Source: Candidatus Eisenbacteria bacterium (GTDB taxonomy: Bacteria; Eisenbacteria; RBG-16-71-46). From it: a stretch of DNA of 64,000 nucleotides. Positions within the stretch are counted from its first letter, which is position 1. Each line of letters opens with the position of its first letter. The notes under the pieces were generated by a model. That model was not told the DNA's origin. It saw only the letters and a program-made list of their open reading frames with translations, and did no database searches. The translations under genes were made by a program, and so were the position numbers. Positions 49,728 through 59,432 of this stretch are shown one piece after another. Location of the stretch: NCBI GenBank assembly GCA_020847735.1, contig JADLBL010000020.1, positions 133,632-197,631 of the forward strand, in the 5' to 3' direction.

Positions 49728-50333
49728 ATGGCCGCACCCACGGGTGACGACGAGCGTCCCCGAGCCACACCGCCGCTGGAGACCACGGCGTGGCTGCTGG
49801 ACCGGGCGCGGGGTGGCGACGACCGCGCGCGCGAGCGTCTCGTGGCGCGCGTGCTGCCTCCCCTGCAGGCCTGGGCGCACCGGCGGCTGCCGCCGCGGGC
49901 GAGGGACCTGGCCGACACCGACGATCTCGTGCAGGTGGCGATCCTCCGCGCGCTGCGTCACCTCGACACGTTCGAGAGCCGCGGCGAGGGGGCGCTGCTC
50001 GCCTACCTGCGGCAGGTGCTGCTCAACCTCGTGCGCGACGAGGTCCGCCGCGCCGGGACCCGCCGTCCCGGCGAGCCCGTCTCCGACTCGCTTCCCGATC
50101 GCGCGCCCTCGCAGCTGGAGGAACTGGTCGGCCGCGAGACGCTCGCACGCTACGAGGCGGGACTGGCGAAGCTGTCCGCGGAGCAGCGCGAGGCCGTGAT
50201 TCTCAAGGTCGAAATGGGCTACTCGAATCCCGAGATCGCCGAGGCGCTCGGGCGCCCATCGGCGGACGCGGCGCGGGTGTTCGTCGCGCGCGCGCTCGCG
50301 CGGCTGGCCGAGGTCATGCATGAACCCTCCTGA
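49728..50333 (+). CDS. ECF-type RNA polymerase sigma factor
   Basis: This 201-residue sigma-70 family protein has region 2 at about 20-95 (WAHRRLPPRARDLADTDDLVQVAILRAL, where DTDDLVQ is the typical core-binding helix) and region 4 at about 145-195 (LSAEQREAVILKVEMGYSNPEIAEALG, helix-turn-helix). There is no anti-sigma gene next to it; instead its last 14 bases overlap a Ser/Thr kinase gene, a pairing known for several ECF groups controlled by kinase phosphorylation. The kinase is therefore a likely regulator. Confidence 0.9.
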   Translation: MAAPTGDDERPRATPPLETTAWLLDRARGGDDRARERLVARVLPPLQAWAHRRLPPRARDLADTDDLVQVAILRALRHLDTFESRGEGALLAYLRQVLLNLVRDEVRRAGTRRPGEPVSDSLPDRAPSQLEELVGRETLARYEAGLAKLSAEQREAVILKVEMGYSNPEIAEALGRPSADAARVFVARALARLAEVMHEPS

Positions 50334-53028
50334 ACCACCGCCCGAGCCCGATCCGAGGCTGGTCGAGCTGGCGCTGGGCCTTGCGGACGACGTTCCCGTG
50401 GACTGGGAAGGCGCCCGCAACACGGCCGCGGACCTGTCGGAGACGCTCGAGCAACTTCGCGAACTCGAAACGCTCGCGCAGGCGCACCGGCGCGACCGCA
50501 GGCTGCGCGATTCGCGCCCGGACGCGCCCGTCTTTCGCTGGGGCGCGCTCGAGGCGGTCGAGAAGCTCGGCGAGGGAGGGTTCGCCGAGGTCTGGCGCGC
50601 CTACGAGCCCGCGCTCGCGCGCGAGGTCGCGCTCAAGCTGCGGCGCGCGGACGCGCCGGGCGGTCCGCGCTGGCTCAAGGAGGCTCAGCGGCTGGCGAAG
50701 GTGCGGCACCCGAACGTCGTTCAGGTTTACGGCGCGGACGTGTTCGACGGGCGTCCCGGGCTGTGGACGGAACTGGTGCAGGGCCGCACGCTCGAGCAAC
50801 GCCTGCTGGCCGAGGGTCCCTGCGGCGCCGCCGAGACGGCCGCCATCGGCATCCAGGTGTGCGCCGCGCTCGCCGCGGTGCACGCCGCCGGGCTGGTGCA
50901 CGGCGACGTCAAGACCCGGAACGTGATGCGCGAAGGCGTCCCCGCCGGGCACGGCCGGCTGGCCGGATCCGGCAGGGTCGTTCTCATGGATTTCGGCGCC
51001 GCTTCGGACGCGGACGAACGGGGCGCCGGGTCCGCCGGCACGCCGATGTTCGCGGCTCCCGAGCGGCTCGCGGGCGGCGAATCGAGCGTCGCGGGCGATC
51101 TGTACTCGCTCGGCGTCGTGCTCTACCGCCTGCTCACGGGCCGCTTTCCGGTGGAGGCGACGAGTACGGAGGCGCTGCGCGCGAAGCTGGCGCGCGGCGA
51201 GCTGACGCCGCTGCGAAGCCTTCGGCCGGACCTGCCTTCGGGGCTGCTGCAGGTCATCGAGCGCGCGCTCGAGCGCGACGCCGGCCGGCGGTTCCCCGGC
51301 GCGGCAGAAATGGAGCGCGCGTTGATCTCGGTGCTGGCGCCGGCCGCAGCGGGACCGGGCGCGGACGGCACCGCACGGTGGCGGTTCGCGACAGGGCTCG
51401 TGGCGGGCGTGCTGATCGCGCTGGTCGCGGCGGCGGCCTTCCTGCAGGTCCGCGATCGGCTCGCGCCCCGATTCCATTTCGCTTCGGCCGCCCGTCCGCT
51501 GCCGCACGTTCTCACGCCGCTCGTGCGCGAGACCGAGTCGGGCCAATGGATCGGAATGTCGTCGGTTCGTATCGGAGACCTGGACGGCGACGGCCACGCG
51601 GACCTCGCCACCGGCGCCCCGTTCGAGGGCGGAGCCGGACGGGTCCACGTGCTCTTCGGCGACGGCCATGGCGGATTCCCACGCTCGCTGGCACTGGCAG
51701 GCCGGCAGACCTCGGCGATGTTCGGCGGCGCGCTCGCCGCCGCGGACCTGAATGGCGATGGCCGGCCCGACCTCGCCGTGGGCGCGTCGAACTGGTCCGG
51801 CGCGTCTCCGGGAGGCGGACGCGTGCTCATTTACTATGGCGGCGCGCCGTTCGACTCGGCCCGCCACCGCACGCTTCAGGTGGCGCACGCCGGCGCGCAG
51901 TTCGGCTTCTCGCTCTCCTGCGGCGACTTCAACGGCGACGGCGTCGCCGACCTGGCCGTGGGCGCGTGCGGCGACGCGAACGCGGGCCGCACGCCCGCCG
52001 GACGCGTGTACGTCTACTTCGGCGGCCCGCGGATGCGCGATTCGCCGGACGTGACGCTCGGCAGCGACGCGCCCGACGCGCAGTTCGGAAATGCCGTGGA
52101 CCTGGGAGGGGACCTGAACGGCGACGGCATCGCCGACCTCGCCGTCAGCGCGCCGTGGGAGAGCAGCGACGGGTTGCGCGCCGGACGCGGTTACGTCTTT
52201 TTCGGAGGCCGCGTTCCCGCCACCACGCCGGCGCTCGTGCTGCGCGGCCTAGGACCCTGGCAGCAGCTCGGCGCCCCGCACTACGTGGGAGACCTCGACG
52301 GCGACGGCTTCGACGACCTGCTGGTCGCCAACGAGCGCGGCGACGGCTTCGAGCACGCCTCGGGCACCGCGTTGCTGTTTCGCGGTGCGAGCGCACCGTC
52401 CGACGTGCCGGCGCGCACCTATCGGGGGGAACGCGAAGGCGATGGTTTCGGTCGCTGGGCCACGAACGTCGGCGACGTGAACGGCGATGGTCGCGCGGAC
52501 CTGGCGATCGCGGCGTGGTGGAGCGACGTCGGCGGGCCCACCTCCGGCGCGATCTACCTGTACGCGGGCGGGCCGCAACTCGACACCGCGCCGCTCGCGC
52601 GGCTGCCCGGTCCGGGTGTCGGAGCGCGATTCGGCACGGCGATCGCCGGCGCCGGGGACCTCGATGACGACGGCTTCCCCGACGTGCTCGTGGGCGAGCC
52701 GTCGAACTCGAGCCAGTGGAGGGGTGGCACCTTCCTGGCGAGTTTTCATCGCTTCGTGCTCTCGAGACCGCGGCCCGACGAACGGTGGCGCGGCGGAGAG
52801 CGGGCGGTCGTGGCCTGGCGAGGGGAGACTCCCGCCGCGCTCGAGTACTCCGCGGACGGGCGGGCATGGACGACGCTGCTCGGACATACCGGTGGCCGTG
52901 GCTCGAACTCGGTCTCGATCCGCGTTCCGCAGGTGGCGGACACGTTGCTCGACCTGCGCCTGCGCCCGGCGGATTCGAAGCTCCGGGGCGCGATCGAAGT
53001 CGCGGTCCCTGTGGCCCGGGGGCGCTGA
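50320..53028 (+). CDS. Membrane Ser/Thr kinase fused to an FG-GAP propeller
   Basis: This 902-residue protein has a Pkn2/PknB-type kinase domain at about 73-340: glycine loop LGEGGFAEVW (83-92), ATP lysine K106, catalytic HGDVKTRN (194-201, HGD where most have HRD), DFG (224-226) and the APE-type AAPERL. One membrane helix (about 357-376) follows. Then six or seven FG-GAP/integrin-alpha-like repeats, about 407-830, each with a Ca-binding loop such as DLDGDGHADLATG, DLNGDGRPDLAVG, DFNGDGVADLAVG and DVNGDGRADLAIA. The C-terminal 80 residues are beta-rich. The outer propeller is a probable sensor of ligand or cation. Overlaps the ECF sigma gene by 14 bp. Confidence 0.92.
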   Translation: MNPPEPPPEPDPRLVELALGLADDVPVDWEGARNTAADLSETLEQLRELETLAQAHRRDRRLRDSRPDAPVFRWGALEAVEKLGEGGFAEVWRAYEPALAREVALKLRRADAPGGPRWLKEAQRLAKVRHPNVVQVYGADVFDGRPGLWTELVQGRTLEQRLLAEGPCGAAETAAIGIQVCAALAAVHAAGLVHGDVKTRNVMREGVPAGHGRLAGSGRVVLMDFGAASDADERGAGSAGTPMFAAPERLAGGESSVAGDLYSLGVVLYRLLTGRFPVEATSTEALRAKLARGELTPLRSLRPDLPSGLLQVIERALERDAGRRFPGAAEMERALISVLAPAAAGPGADGTARWRFATGLVAGVLIALVAAAAFLQVRDRLAPRFHFASAARPLPHVLTPLVRETESGQWIGMSSVRIGDLDGDGHADLATGAPFEGGAGRVHVLFGDGHGGFPRSLALAGRQTSAMFGGALAAADLNGDGRPDLAVGASNWSGASPGGGRVLIYYGGAPFDSARHRTLQVAHAGAQFGFSLSCGDFNGDGVADLAVGACGDANAGRTPAGRVYVYFGGPRMRDSPDVTLGSDAPDAQFGNAVDLGGDLNGDGIADLAVSAPWESSDGLRAGRGYVFFGGRVPATTPALVLRGLGPWQQLGAPHYVGDLDGDGFDDLLVANERGDGFEHASGTALLFRGASAPSDVPARTYRGEREGDGFGRWATNVGDVNGDGRADLAIAAWWSDVGGPTSGAIYLYAGGPQLDTAPLARLPGPGVGARFGTAIAGAGDLDDDGFPDVLVGEPSNSSQWRGGTFLASFHRFVLSRPRPDERWRGGERAVVAWRGETPAALEYSADGRAWTTLLGHTGGRGSNSVSIRVPQVADTLLDLRLRPADSKLRGAIEVAVPVARGR

Positions 53029-54107: not shown

Positions 54108-56225
54108 TCAGTCGGCGCGCAGCGTTCGCGTGTCGGTGTCGAAGCCGACGAGCCGTGCGCGACCCGCCTCGACGAGGAGCGAGTCGGCGAACGACAGGAC
54201 GAGCCCGACGCCCCTGGGGTCGTGAACGGGCGTGAACTCGACGCGGACCGCGTGCCTGCCGGGCGCGGCCGGCAGGTCCTGCTCGACGAACAGCGGGCGG
54301 TCGCCGCGCGCTCCCAGCGGCGCGACCTCGCGCTCGGTGACGAGCCTGCCGTCCAGCCAGGCGCGCAGGCGATAGCGCAGGTAGACGGTGCGGCAGTCCT
54401 GCGTCCGCCGCATGTGCGCGGGCATGCGCGCGATCTCGTCGGCCGAGAGTTCCCGGCAGTCGAGCCACGACTGGCCCGGCAGCCGCCACGCCAGGCGCAC
54501 GGCTCCCTGCGGCGGAGTCGCGCCCGCCGACCACTGGGACAGCGTCGCGGTGGCCGCCAGCGCCGCGAGCCCCAGCAGCGTCGCGAGGATCGCGCCGGCG
54601 GCGCCGCGAATGCCCGGCGCGAACGGGCGGCGCGGGACCGCTCGCGCGCCGGCGGCGCGTGCGAACAGCTCGAACTCGCCCGCCAGCCAGTCGAGATCCG
54701 CCGAGGCCCCGGCCGTGAAGCGCACGCGCGTGGGGTCGAGCGGCGTCTTGAGCTCGGGATGCCGGCCGAGCAGCAGGCGTTCGAGCGCCAGTCCCGTGCC
54801 CTCGCGCGAGCGGCAGCGATGCGGCGGGCAGCCGAGCACGAACACGCCGCGGTGGCGATCGCTGAGCTGCGAGACCGCGAGCGAGTGCAACGAACCCGCG
54901 CAGTCCACCTCGACGCAGGCGACCCGGTGCCCCGCGGCGCGCGCGCGCCCGGCGAGCGCTTCGCCGACGCCGTCGTGGCTGCAATGCACGAGCGCGAAGC
55001 CGCCGGGATCGGCGGCGGCGTTGACCGCCTTCACGGCCCGGACCTGCGCGTGCCCGTCGCGGCCGGGCGGACCGATGGCGAGCTGGTCGCACGAGCCCGA
55101 GCACAGCCCGCAGGCGACGCAGCGCGCGGAGTTCACGATGGCGATGGTCTCCGAGCCGCGTCCGGTCGGGTTCGGTCCCATGGCGATGGCTTCGAAGGGG
55201 CAGTCGATCGCGCACTGGCCGCAGCCGGTGCACGCCGCCGGGTTGTGCAGCGCCGTCTCGCGGCGGCGATCGCGCCTCGGCCGCCACCACAGCGGCACCG
55301 ACAGCGGCAGCAGGGCGAGCGCGAACGAGGCGGCCCAGGCGGCGGGCGGCGCGAGCCGCGCGGCGATCGGGACCCAGGCGGTGTAGAAGACGTCGTACGT
55401 GGCCCGGTCGCCGAGCCGGAGTCCGTCGGCCGCCGGACCGAGCGCGACCGGAACGGCGAAGGAAAGCACGGTGAAGGCGAGGGCGACCGGCACCCAGACG
55501 CGCGTTTCGGGCAGCCAGCGTCCGCGCGCGAGGCGCAGCGTGTGGATCCAGACCAGCAGCGTCATGCCGAGCGGCAGCGACATGTGGACGAACAGATTGA
55601 GGAAGAAGAACGACGAGGGCGCGGCGGCGCCGCCGCCGAAGATGCGGCCGATGGGCGTCGCGAGCAGGCCCAGCGAGTCGAACAACCGCGCGCCGGCGGC
55701 GCCGAGGATCAGGCCGTGCATGTCCCAGACGAGCACGTACCCGGTCCAGCCGACCACGAGCGTCGCCCCGGTCAGCAGCAGGCCCGTGACCCACGCCAGC
55801 ACGCGCGGGCCCCACGTGCGGCCCTCCGCGAACATGCGCAGCGCGTGCAGCGCGATGCACGCGACCGCGGCGTCGGAGGCGTAGCGGTGCAGGGCGCGCA
55901 GCCAGCGGCCCGCCCAGACCTGGGCCTGGATGCGCTGCATGGATTCGTAGGGCGCGCCGATCCGGTAGACGAGCAGCAGGTACACCCCGGTGGCGATCAC
56001 GACCAGCATCAGCGCGATGACCAGCGGCCCGCTCTGGTGCAGCGGATTCCAGCGCGAGCCGTAGGCGCGGTCGAACAGCGAGTCGAGCGCGGCGAGCGCG
56101 GCCTGGAGGGGCTTCGCGGCCGCGGGCGCCGTCTCTCGCTCGAGCGCGTCGGGGTGGCCGAGCGGAAGCGCCCGCGACGGCGGCGTCTCGACGGACGGGG
56201 CCTCGTCCGGGAGAACCGCTTTCAC
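54108..56225 (-). CDS. Cytochrome b / 2x[4Fe-4S] ferredoxin / MvhD-like fusion
   Basis: This 705-residue membrane protein starts at a GTG overlapping the SCO stop (GTGA). Residues 50-320 are a cytochrome b6-like domain with two heme-ligand pairs, H113/H127 and H214/H228, each 14 apart. Residues about 330-385 hold two ferredoxin clusters (C332, C335, C338, C342 and C369, C372, C375, C379). Residues about 408-485 resemble the MvhD/hydrogenase iron-sulfur delta family (VHCSHDGVGEAL, VEVDCAGSLH, LGCPPHRC), though one CxxC is reduced. A further membrane helix (about 538-560) and a beta-rich domain follow. It could move electrons between quinone or b hemes and a soluble iron-sulfur carrier. Last gene of the operon. 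Confidence 0.85.
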   Translation of the reverse strand: MKAVLPDEAPSVETPPSRALPLGHPDALERETAPAAAKPLQAALAALDSLFDRAYGSRWNPLHQSGPLVIALMLVVIATGVYLLLVYRIGAPYESMQRIQAQVWAGRWLRALHRYASDAAVACIALHALRMFAEGRTWGPRVLAWVTGLLLTGATLVVGWTGYVLVWDMHGLILGAAGARLFDSLGLLATPIGRIFGGGAAAPSSFFFLNLFVHMSLPLGMTLLVWIHTLRLARGRWLPETRVWVPVALAFTVLSFAVPVALGPAADGLRLGDRATYDVFYTAWVPIAARLAPPAAWAASFALALLPLSVPLWWRPRRDRRRETALHNPAACTGCGQCAIDCPFEAIAMGPNPTGRGSETIAIVNSARCVACGLCSGSCDQLAIGPPGRDGHAQVRAVKAVNAAADPGGFALVHCSHDGVGEALAGRARAAGHRVACVEVDCAGSLHSLAVSQLSDRHRGVFVLGCPPHRCRSREGTGLALERLLLGRHPELKTPLDPTRVRFTAGASADLDWLAGEFELFARAAGARAVPRRPFAPGIRGAAGAILATLLGLAALAATATLSQWSAGATPPQGAVRLAWRLPGQSWLDCRELSADEIARMPAHMRRTQDCRTVYLRYRLRAWLDGRLVTEREVAPLGARGDRPLFVEQDLPAAPGRHAVRVEFTPVHDPRGVGLVLSFADSLLVEAGRARLVGFDTDTRTLRAD

Positions 56226-57145
56226 GACCGGCCCCGCACGCGGCGCACGCCCTCGACGATCCACTCGGGAGGGGGGTTGTTGAACCGGTAGGCGATCCGC
56301 CCTTCGGCGTCGAGGATCATGACGATCGGCGCATGCGAGACGTCGCCGCTCTTCAGATCGCGCTCATGCGCGACCCGGAGCGTATCGAGCAGCCGGCAGA
56401 CCGCGTCGGGATCGCCGGAGAGCAGCCGGCCGTCCTCGGGGAGCGACCAGCGGGACGCGAGCGCGGGCAGCGCGCCCGGCGTGTCACGCCACGGATCGAG
56501 CGTGACCAGCGCGATGCGCGCGCCGCCGGGGCCCAGTTCGCGGGCGGCCCGGCCGAGGTTCGCGACGAGCACCGGGCAGACGGTCTGGCAGTTCGCGAAC
56601 GCGAAGCTCAGCACGGTCGGCCGGCCGCGAAGGTCCGCCGCGCCGAAGGCCCCGCCATGCTGGTCCACGAGCGTGAACGCCGGCACGGGGTCGCTCGAGC
56701 GCGGCCAGTTGTCCGGCAGCGGCCCGCGCTCCTCGGGCGCGAACGACACGGTCGCCACCCGGCGCTGCTCGCGGATGCGACCGGCCGCCCAGCGCACCTC
56801 GACCATGAAGACGAGGACGCACGCCGCCGCGATCCCGTGGGCGAGCGGCGAACGGGCGAGCCGCGGCAGGGCGGTCCTGAGCTCGCCGTGGAAGGCCGCG
56901 CCGATCGCCGCCAGCATGAGCAGCGGGGCGGGAACGAGCATCATCCAGCCCTGCACGGCCGGAGGGCCGCCCGGCAGCGAGCCGAAGCACGCCGACTGCG
57001 CGGCCGAAAGCCACGAGGTGTCGCCGGCCGGCACCGGCCAGAACGCGAAGCCCCACCACGAGACGACGGCGAGCGCCCACAGCAGCAGGAGCGCCGCGCC
57101 CACGCGCGGCGCTCCCCCGGGAGCCACACCCGGAACCACGGCCAT
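56222..57145 (-). CDS. SCO1/SenC-like copper protein with membrane head
   Basis: This 307-residue protein begins with three hydrophobic segments (about 14-37, 64-86 and 99-118), then a thioredoxin-fold SCO domain from about 150. The copper site is complete: CQTVCP (C186, C190) and H271 in DVSHAPIVMILD. SCO proteins deliver copper to the CuA site of subunit II, and that gene is two places upstream. Its ATG overlaps the stop of subunit I and its stop overlaps the next GTG, so translation is coupled. The long multi-span head is unusual; typical SCO proteins have one anchor. Confidence 0.9.
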   Translation of the reverse strand: MAVVPGVAPGGAPRVGAALLLLWALAVVSWWGFAFWPVPAGDTSWLSAAQSACFGSLPGGPPAVQGWMMLVPAPLLMLAAIGAAFHGELRTALPRLARSPLAHGIAAACVLVFMVEVRWAAGRIREQRRVATVSFAPEERGPLPDNWPRSSDPVPAFTLVDQHGGAFGAADLRGRPTVLSFAFANCQTVCPVLVANLGRAARELGPGGARIALVTLDPWRDTPGALPALASRWSLPEDGRLLSGDPDAVCRLLDTLRVAHERDLKSGDVSHAPIVMILDAEGRIAYRFNNPPPEWIVEGVRRVRGRS

Positions 57146-58872
57146 CAGCCCACCTTCCAGAGGAACGACAGCATCTTCCAGTTCGTGAAGTAGTAGAGGA
57201 CGAAGCAGGCGAAGAATACCCCGACGAGCACGAGCGTGCCCTTCACTCCCTGCTGGTGGACCTGGTCCGCGAGCGGACCGGTGTGCGACTGCGCCGGCAG
57301 CCGCAGGACGCCCGAGGGCAGCCCAGAGGCGCCCGCGGCGATGGCTTCGGCCGTCACCGGCTTGCCGAAGAACACCGTGGTCACGGCGATGGCGATGAAC
57401 ATGAGCGCGCCGGTGGCGGCCAGCAGGCCGCCGATGCCGAACAGCACCTGCACCAGCTCGGACGCCGGGTGGATCTCGACCGGGAACGGCGCGCCCGCGA
57501 ACGACGAGTCCCAGTGGCGGCGCGGAATGCCGAGGATGCCCATGAAGATCATGCCCATGGCCATGGCGGTGAGGCCGGCGCCGAACACGTACGGCTGGAT
57601 CTTCGCCATCGGCCAGAACGCGACGCGACGCCGGAAGATCAGCGGCAGCACGTAGTAGGTGACGGCCATGAAGGCCAGCGTCGTGCCTCCGACCACGGTC
57701 GCGTGGAAGTGGCCGGTCACGCGCAGCGTGTTGTGGACGAGGATGTTGATCTGCTCGGTGCCGATGGTGACGCCCGTGATGCCGCCGAGGAAGCCGAAGA
57801 TCACCAGCGAAAGCCACATGCCCGAGAACCCCGGATCGTCCCACGGCGCCTTGCGCAGCCATTCGAACATGCCGTTCGTGTAACCGCGCAGGCGCTGCCC
57901 GGCCTCGATGCCGGCCGGGACCGTGAAGCCGTGGATCATGCTCGCGAGCACCGCCAGGTACATCGCGTAACTGGTGTTCCAGATCTTCCACGCCGGCCCC
58001 ACCCCGGGGTCCACGAGCAGGTGGTGCGCGGAGGCCATCGAGATGAAGAGCACGTACAGCACGAACGCGGTCCGGCTCACCTTCTCGTTCACGACCACGC
58101 CGCCGACGGTCAGGCCGCCCAGCAGGTACCAGACCGAGACCATCGCGGCGACGTTGATCTGCTGCGACGAGTGCCCGAGCCCCCACCACACCATGCGGTA
58201 GACCTCGGGATCGATGTTGCCGACGTTCATGGACCACAGCCAGGTCGGAATGTAGACGGCCGCGCCGTGGAGCAGCGTGATGACCGCGATCACGGCCGCC
58301 GTCAGCCCGCCGAAGGTCACGAGCGGCATCGAGCCCGTGTACGTCTTCTCGCGTTTCGCCACCACCAGCGAGGCGAAGAACAGCGAGACGGCGATCAGCG
58401 CCCCGACCGCGAACAGGATCACGCCCAGGTAGTAGTTCGGCGTCGCCCGCAACGGCGGGTAGGACGTGAACAGCACGTCGGCCTGCCCCATGAAGACCGT
58501 CGCGTCCACGATGCCCGCGCCCACGACCATCAGCCCGAACGCGGCCCAGGCCAGCTTCGGCGCGGGCTGCCGGCAACCCAGCACCACCGGACCGGCGAAG
58601 TAGAGCACGGCCATCTCGAAGAAAAGGATCCAGAAGATCAGCATGTTGAGGCCGTGGGCGGTCAGGAAGCGGTAGTACATCTCCGCGGGCAGAAGGTGGA
58701 TGGCCTGCCAGCGCGTGAGCACCAGGCCGATCGCGGCCAGCGCGCCCACCAGCATCGCGACCACCGCCACGACGGCGTTGGCGCGGATGAGCAGTTCCGA
58801 GTCCCGATTGACCTTCAGTCCCGTCACCGGACAGGTGCGGAACCGTTCGGCGAATGTTTCGATCGCACTCAT
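57145..58872 (-). CDS. B-type heme-copper oxidoreductase subunit I, possible NO reductase
   Basis: This 575-residue protein has about 13-14 membrane helices. The heme and copper histidines are all there: H73 and H390 for the low-spin heme, H388 for the high-spin heme, and H234, H283 and H284 for CuB. SAHHLLVDPGVGPAWKIWN and VTGHFHATVVGG match the B (ba3-like) class. The residue four after H234 is Q238 (GHSSQQ), where O2-reducing A and B oxidases have the cross-linked Tyr (HPxVY). Loss of that Tyr is typical of heme-copper nitric oxide reductases. It may therefore reduce NO, or be an oxidase using another residue. AAAGGAGGA precedes the ATG. Confidence 0.87.
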   Translation of the reverse strand: MSAIETFAERFRTCPVTGLKVNRDSELLIRANAVVAVVAMLVGALAAIGLVLTRWQAIHLLPAEMYYRFLTAHGLNMLIFWILFFEMAVLYFAGPVVLGCRQPAPKLAWAAFGLMVVGAGIVDATVFMGQADVLFTSYPPLRATPNYYLGVILFAVGALIAVSLFFASLVVAKREKTYTGSMPLVTFGGLTAAVIAVITLLHGAAVYIPTWLWSMNVGNIDPEVYRMVWWGLGHSSQQINVAAMVSVWYLLGGLTVGGVVVNEKVSRTAFVLYVLFISMASAHHLLVDPGVGPAWKIWNTSYAMYLAVLASMIHGFTVPAGIEAGQRLRGYTNGMFEWLRKAPWDDPGFSGMWLSLVIFGFLGGITGVTIGTEQINILVHNTLRVTGHFHATVVGGTTLAFMAVTYYVLPLIFRRRVAFWPMAKIQPYVFGAGLTAMAMGMIFMGILGIPRRHWDSSFAGAPFPVEIHPASELVQVLFGIGGLLAATGALMFIAIAVTTVFFGKPVTAEAIAAGASGLPSGVLRLPAQSHTGPLADQVHQQGVKGTLVLVGVFFACFVLYYFTNWKMLSFLWKVG

Positions 58873-58883
58873 GGTTCCTCCTT

Positions 58884-59432
58884 TCAGTCCTCGACGAGGA
58901 CCTTGCCGACCATCAGGTGGTGGCCGATGCCGCAGAACTCGTTGCAGATGATCCGGAAATCGCCCGAGCGATTGGGCACGACCCGCAGCCCGTAGTCGTA
59001 GCCGGGCACGACCTGGAAGTTGAGGTTGACGGGATAGAGGCTGAAGCCGTGATTCAGGTCGGAGGACGACAGGTGCAGCGTGTACTGCACGCCCTTCTTG
59101 AGCTTCAGCACCGGGTACCACTGCCACATTCGGCCGAGCAGGTAGACGTCGGCGCCGGGAGGGGGCGCGACGACCGGAATGCCGCTCTCCTCACCGACCT
59201 GGTATTCCTCGACGAAGCGGTCGACGCGGGCGACGTAGGCCTCCGGCGTGACGCGGTAGCGGATGCCGGACGGGTTCTGTCCGCCGCGGAAGTGCCAGAG
59301 CGGCATCATCGCGAACAGCACGAGACACCAGATGAAGGCGATCGCCACCCAGGTCTTTTCCTGGCGGTGCGCCGGCAGCCACCAGATGCCCTGGGGCGGA
59401 ACCAGCGCGGAATGGAATTCATGCGCGGACAC
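58884..59432 (-). CDS. Heme-copper oxidoreductase subunit II (CuA)
   Basis: This 182-residue protein has one N-terminal membrane helix (about 27-46) and a periplasmic cupredoxin domain. The CuA ligands are complete: H128 (LNHGFSL), C163, E165, C167, H171 and M174 in CNEFCGIGHHLM. It accepts electrons from a cytochrome c or other donor and passes them to subunit I. The small size and single helix fit B-type subunit II. Start is a GTG at 59432 behind GAGGAGGG, 18 bp after the small-subunit stop; subunit I follows 11 bp later. Confidence 0.92.
   Translation of the reverse strand: MSAHEFHSALVPPQGIWWLPAHRQEKTWVAIAFIWCLVLFAMMPLWHFRGGQNPSGIRYRVTPEAYVARVDRFVEEYQVGEESGIPVVAPPPGADVYLLGRMWQWYPVLKLKKGVQYTLHLSSSDLNHGFSLYPVNLNFQVVPGYDYGLRVVPNRSGDFRIICNEFCGIGHHLMVGKVLVED

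Follow-up and report, generated by a model that had tools for sequence, protein, structure and literature searches.

In the window (the whole stretch of 64,000 nucleotides of Candidatus Eisenbacteria DNA that was analysed), an operon on the minus strand encodes, in this order, a 56-aa one-helix protein, a CuA-bearing subunit II, the heme-copper subunit I, an SCO/SenC protein and a cytochrome b/Fe-S fusion protein (Table 1). The gene of subunit II lies immediately upstream of that of subunit I, and its product carries the CuA motif C-x-E-x-C-G-x-G-H-x-x-M, a motif of the same kind being present in 89 of 89 subunit II homologues. At the corresponding loci of relatives, heme o synthase CyoE is often a neighbour (53 loci), and there are NO-related neighbours as well, namely hemerythrin (30 loci) and, in Thermus, an Rrf2 regulator, DUF542 and cytochrome P460. 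Elsewhere in the window, a plus-strand gene (50320-53028) appears, on reading of its sequence, to encode a protein-kinase-like N-terminus followed by FG-GAP-like repeats (GDLDGDGxxD).

Table 1 Features assigned at the locus, with their positions in the window.
Feature	Coordinates	Strand	Remarks
Small one-helix subunit, 56 aa	59451..59621	−	Homologue in 79 of 94 loci searched (6 of the 94 are ba3 loci)
eNOR subunit II, cupredoxin with CuA site CNEFCGIGHHLM	58884..59432	−	GTG start, GAGGAGGGA upstream
eNOR subunit I, heme-copper catalytic subunit	57145..58872	−	575 aa; assigned from ligands and Gln238, COX1 match, tree and model
SCO1/SenC copper chaperone, N-terminal membrane region	56222..57145	−	PF02630; overlaps the stop codon of subunit I
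eNOR-associated fusion, 718 aa	54108..56264	−	Start uncertain, GTG at 56264 or later

The reading frame of subunit I is unbroken and begins with an ATG that is preceded by an AGGAGG ribosome site. Its product matches the Pfam COX1 model with 201 bits, the nearest solved relatives by sequence are the Thermus thermophilus ba3 structures (E ~1e-42), and Thermus ba3 is likewise the top fold match (TMq 0.78) of an AlphaFold2 model built on 31 sequences (pLDDT 83). The heme and CuB ligands are all present (H73, H234, H283, H284, H388 and H390, 6 of 6), and four residues past H234, at the site of the cross-linked Tyr of O2 reductases, the protein has Gln238. An earlier note on this DNA had reported the coordinates of the gene, the six His and a Gln at H234+4, all of which proved exact on re-reading of the sequence; the CuA subunit that it claimed is also real, with the motif CxExCGxGHxxM in the gene listed in Table 1. 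In the K-channel region, alignment with ba3 indicates that Y249, S311 and T317 are kept, with Thr312 changed to His314 and Tyr244 to Val245.

Conservation was analyzed in a set of 88 relatives, which includes 80 named genome loci from a pattern scan, four relatives from the phylum and plasmid copies; rows L006 and L048 are one genome, and several other rows are close kin. Gln occupies the cross-linked-Tyr site in 88 of 88 eNOR relatives, in a sample that leans to eNOR because one of the patterns behind its 80 scanned loci, WGxGH[GS][AS], ends right next to the Gln, and Tyr occupies it in all six ba3-type oxidases aligned with them. Plasmids searched by tblastn, a search without bias toward Gln, gave a clean Gln/Tyr split that agrees with the genome scan: Gln was found in Defluviimonas (55% identity), Thermomicrobium roseum (47%) and Thermus thermophilus (46-50%), and Tyr in the ba3-type proteins of haloarchaea, Geobacillus, Deinococcus and Sinorhizobium (~30% identity in those inspected). 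Gln238 is neither an assembly error nor a chance occurrence, since the 88 relatives span many phyla and all have Gln, and the six ba3-type oxidases all have Tyr. The residues E86, Q237, N240, Y273, N299, Y302, H314 and D455 are also present in all 88 eNOR sequences and absent from the six ba3 oxidases. A homologue with 86% identity is encoded by another member of the genus (G020; the same protein stands at L006/L048). Four eNOR copies carry GHFK instead of GHFH (L040:8983-10668, L041:2983-4665, L081 and L095), which by ba3 alignment places Lys at a ligand His of the low-spin heme (the H390 site); the window protein keeps His at this position.

In the maximum-likelihood tree, the window protein falls within a 35-row Gln clade (99/99) that is sister to a 7-row ba3 clade (100/99); Thermus and Thermomicrobium anchor the Gln clade by name, and the Rhodothermus marinus eNOR lies outside the sample. 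Clustering with O2 reductases, one half of what the earlier note had named as a refutation of its NO reductase reading, did not occur, the Gln clade being apart from the ba3 oxidases with their Tyr. Members of the superfamily are told apart by the residue at this site, with Tyr in O2 reductases, Glu in cNOR and qNOR, Asn in sNOR and CuANor, Asp in gNOR and Gln in eNOR, and a conserved Gln is the defining diagnostic of eNOR (PMC8756737). The window protein has the Gln, the six His, an adjacent CuA subunit II and a place in the Gln clade, outside the O2 reductases. Taken together, sequence, operon, conservation, clade membership and predicted fold point with high confidence to a locus encoding a nitric oxide reductase of the eNOR type. 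Other families were considered and rejected: a B-family (ba3) O2 reductase requires Tyr four residues past the first CuB His, bNOR/CuANor requires Asn at this site (PMC8756737), and cNOR/qNOR have Glu there (PMC8756737) along with heme c or a fused quinol subunit; the protein has Gln238 at the site and is accompanied by a CuA subunit.

The eNOR enzyme type is already described, and the window protein is a further eNOR, in Candidatus Eisenbacteria. A Tyr-less sister clade of the B-family oxidases, suspected of NO reduction, was noted in 2019 (PMC6431628); subtype ba3-a1, renamed eNOR, is reported to reduce NO with electrons from cytochrome c (PMC8879329), and eNOR has been biochemically characterised (PMC11388526). 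Thus, of the two readings put forward in the earlier note, a CuA-bearing NO reductase of the cytochrome c type is borne out by the residue signature, the tree position and published work, and a new variant is unneeded, given that the Gln is a published diagnostic, the Tyr-less clade was already on record and activity has been reported for the subtype. Judging from the literature on the family, the window enzyme very probably converts NO to N2O rather than respiring O2. The ba3 oxidases also reduce NO, slowly (PMC8780969), so that NO reduction alone would not rule out the use of O2.

By inference, the window protein would act as an NO reductase whose electrons come from a cytochrome c or cupredoxin in the periplasm, enter at CuA in subunit II and move on to the low-spin heme (H73/H390) before reaching the heme-CuB site (H388; H234/H283/H284), at which two NO would be joined to N2O. 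In O2 reductases, the Tyr acts as an extra electron and proton donor for O-O cleavage; NO reduction is a two-electron reaction, so that the cross-linked Tyr would be dispensable in the window protein, with Gln238 taking its place. Protons would probably be drawn from the cytoplasm through an altered K-type channel (Y249, S311, H314, T317), and, with cytoplasmic uptake by this route, the reaction may conserve energy. SCO would load the copper, and the linked cytochrome b/Fe-S/MvhD-like protein would probably act in this system too, either in electron transfer or in maturation.

This fusion protein combines a cytochrome b6-like domain, two [4Fe-4S] clusters like those of the HdrA C-terminus, an MvhD/FlpD-like domain, a TM helix and a C-terminal beta domain. 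Invariant in 27 sequences are H102, H116, H203, H217, the eight cluster Cys and C404, C431 and C455 (numbered on the shortened protein, 54108-56192); the four invariant His of the cytochrome b6-like domain would be expected to hold two bis-His hemes. The fusion is encoded near eNOR in 70 of the 88 loci, on the same strand in 57, mostly no more than 2.5 kb downstream, and on the opposite strand in 13; among eight further genomes whose eNOR contig was without the fusion, seven carry it elsewhere. Within the phylum, long matches to the fusion occur in the five genomes that have a long eNOR match, which come from two genera and are therefore not independent; the other 42 genomes gave none, at most partial matches. 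The fusion was not found near the plasmid eNOR copies of Thermus and Thermomicrobium. No description of a link between eNOR and the fusion was found in the literature searched, a body that stops short of the main eNOR paper (Murali 2024) and of the ba3-a1 cluster figure of PMC6431628. It is conceivable, and we put it forward tentatively, that most bacterial eNORs use this fusion as a dedicated membrane partner, which would relay electrons for NO reduction between the quinone pool and a carrier in the cytoplasm or periplasm. If so, eNOR would belong to a larger system for NO respiration instead of being a lone cytochrome c-driven enzyme, and the linkage of the two genes would make the electron supply of eNOR directly testable. 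The conserved partner protein is the part of the locus worth following.

Two further arrangements were observed around the fusion and its relatives. In many relatives, the C-terminal domain of the fusion is a separate open reading frame (e.g. L038:11985-12503), with a conserved motif resembling CRxxxxEExxxLPxxMRxxxxC. Sulfuritalea and Rubrivivax MAGs have a second cytochrome b fusion after the eNOR cluster, with [2Fe-2S], FAD and NAD domains, and related open reading frames occupy the corresponding position in Accumulibacter and Dechloromonas (L103:9987-11831, L116:11787-13679 and, by blastp, L074, L079, L090, L094, L104 and L125); a literature search for an Accumulibacter cytochrome b fusion found nothing.

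The genome encodes two more proteins of the COX1 family, namely an A-family oxidase with Tyr (L001) and a Tyr-less CuA enzyme (L003, on G000 contig C7) with Asn at the Tyr site, subunit II at 861-1448, subunit I at 1456-2892 and SCO downstream. In the tree, L003 groups with Asn-bearing proteins of Thermomicrobium roseum and of Ruegeria pomeroyi, whose genus was formerly named Silicibacter. As 'Silicibacter' is among the sNOR holders (PMC8756737), L003 is best called sNOR-like. A clade II (Sec-type) NosZ is encoded as well (G000 contig C24:51227-52948, L128; 865 bits). NirK, NirS and NrfA were searched for in the genome and not found, so that NO probably comes from outside; the NarG and NapA models gave weak matches, below the cut-off. 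Under the simplest reading, the host is probably an incomplete denitrifier that scavenges NO and N2O produced by other organisms; with eNOR, clade II NosZ and an sNOR-like enzyme together, this Eisenbacteria genome becomes a probable sink for both gases. As eNORs are routinely annotated as O2 reductases, under names such as 'cbb3-type cytochrome c oxidase subunit I', genomes of this kind are read as aerobic when they are probably able to consume both gases.

A different view of the physiology, possible although on the unlikely side, is that eNOR only detoxifies NO without energy conservation and that the fusion is a maturation factor for the copper or heme site instead of an electron donor; this view is compatible with the eNOR assignment. 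The presence of SCO and often CyoE in the same cluster speaks for it, as does the probable external origin of NO in a genome where NirK, NirS and NrfA were not found. However, the K-channel positions are retained, with changes that are themselves fixed (H314 in 88 of 88), which suggests that protons are taken from the cytoplasm, and the fusion, with four invariant His of the heme type and three Cys sets resembling cluster sites, seems to go beyond the needs of a chaperone. Far less probable is an O2 reductase with a substitute Tyr, as in the cbb3 oxidases, where the missing Tyr is supplied by a different helix. Candidates are Tyr302 (88 of 88 eNORs) and Tyr305 (86 of 88), both on the helix after the HH pair and neither present in the six ba3 oxidases; by alignment, Tyr302 adjoins ba3 Thr302 on the K-channel helix. 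Nevertheless, the eNOR clade is fully apart from the Tyr-bearing ba3 oxidases in the tree, and NO reduction has been reported for family members (PMC8879329, PMC11388526). An sNOR or bNOR, the former being our first guess from an operon order (II, I, SCO) that matches norSY-senC (PMC4940428) with the same CuA subunit, is improbable in the extreme and was rejected on the residue table and the tree, as both have Asn where the window protein has Gln (PMC8756737) and the Asn-bearing sNOR-type proteins (L003 of the same genome, Ruegeria and Thermomicrobium) lie in a clade of their own, distant from the window protein.

The known system closest to the locus is eNOR, the B-family-related CuA NO reductase that includes the 'ba3-a1' of alphaproteobacteria and was characterised in Rhodothermus marinus. 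The two have in common Gln in place of Tyr, all metal-ligand His, an upstream CuA cupredoxin, SCO in the cluster and a position in the clade sister to ba3; they differ in the host phylum, here Candidatus Eisenbacteria, and in the linked cytochrome b6/HdrA-ferredoxin/MvhD fusion, which goes unmentioned in the eNOR literature surveyed (Murali 2024 lying outside it). With the Thermus thermophilus ba3 oxidase, a B-family O2 reductase, the window protein shares the fold, the ligands, CuA and the K-channel helix, whereas Tyr237 is replaced by Gln238, Thr312 by His314 and Tyr244 by Val245, at ~25% identity. The sNORs (norSY-senC) of Nitrosomonas and Silicibacter/Ruegeria are likewise Tyr-less and have a CuA subunit and SCO in the operon, but carry Asn at the Tyr site and form a clade of their own.
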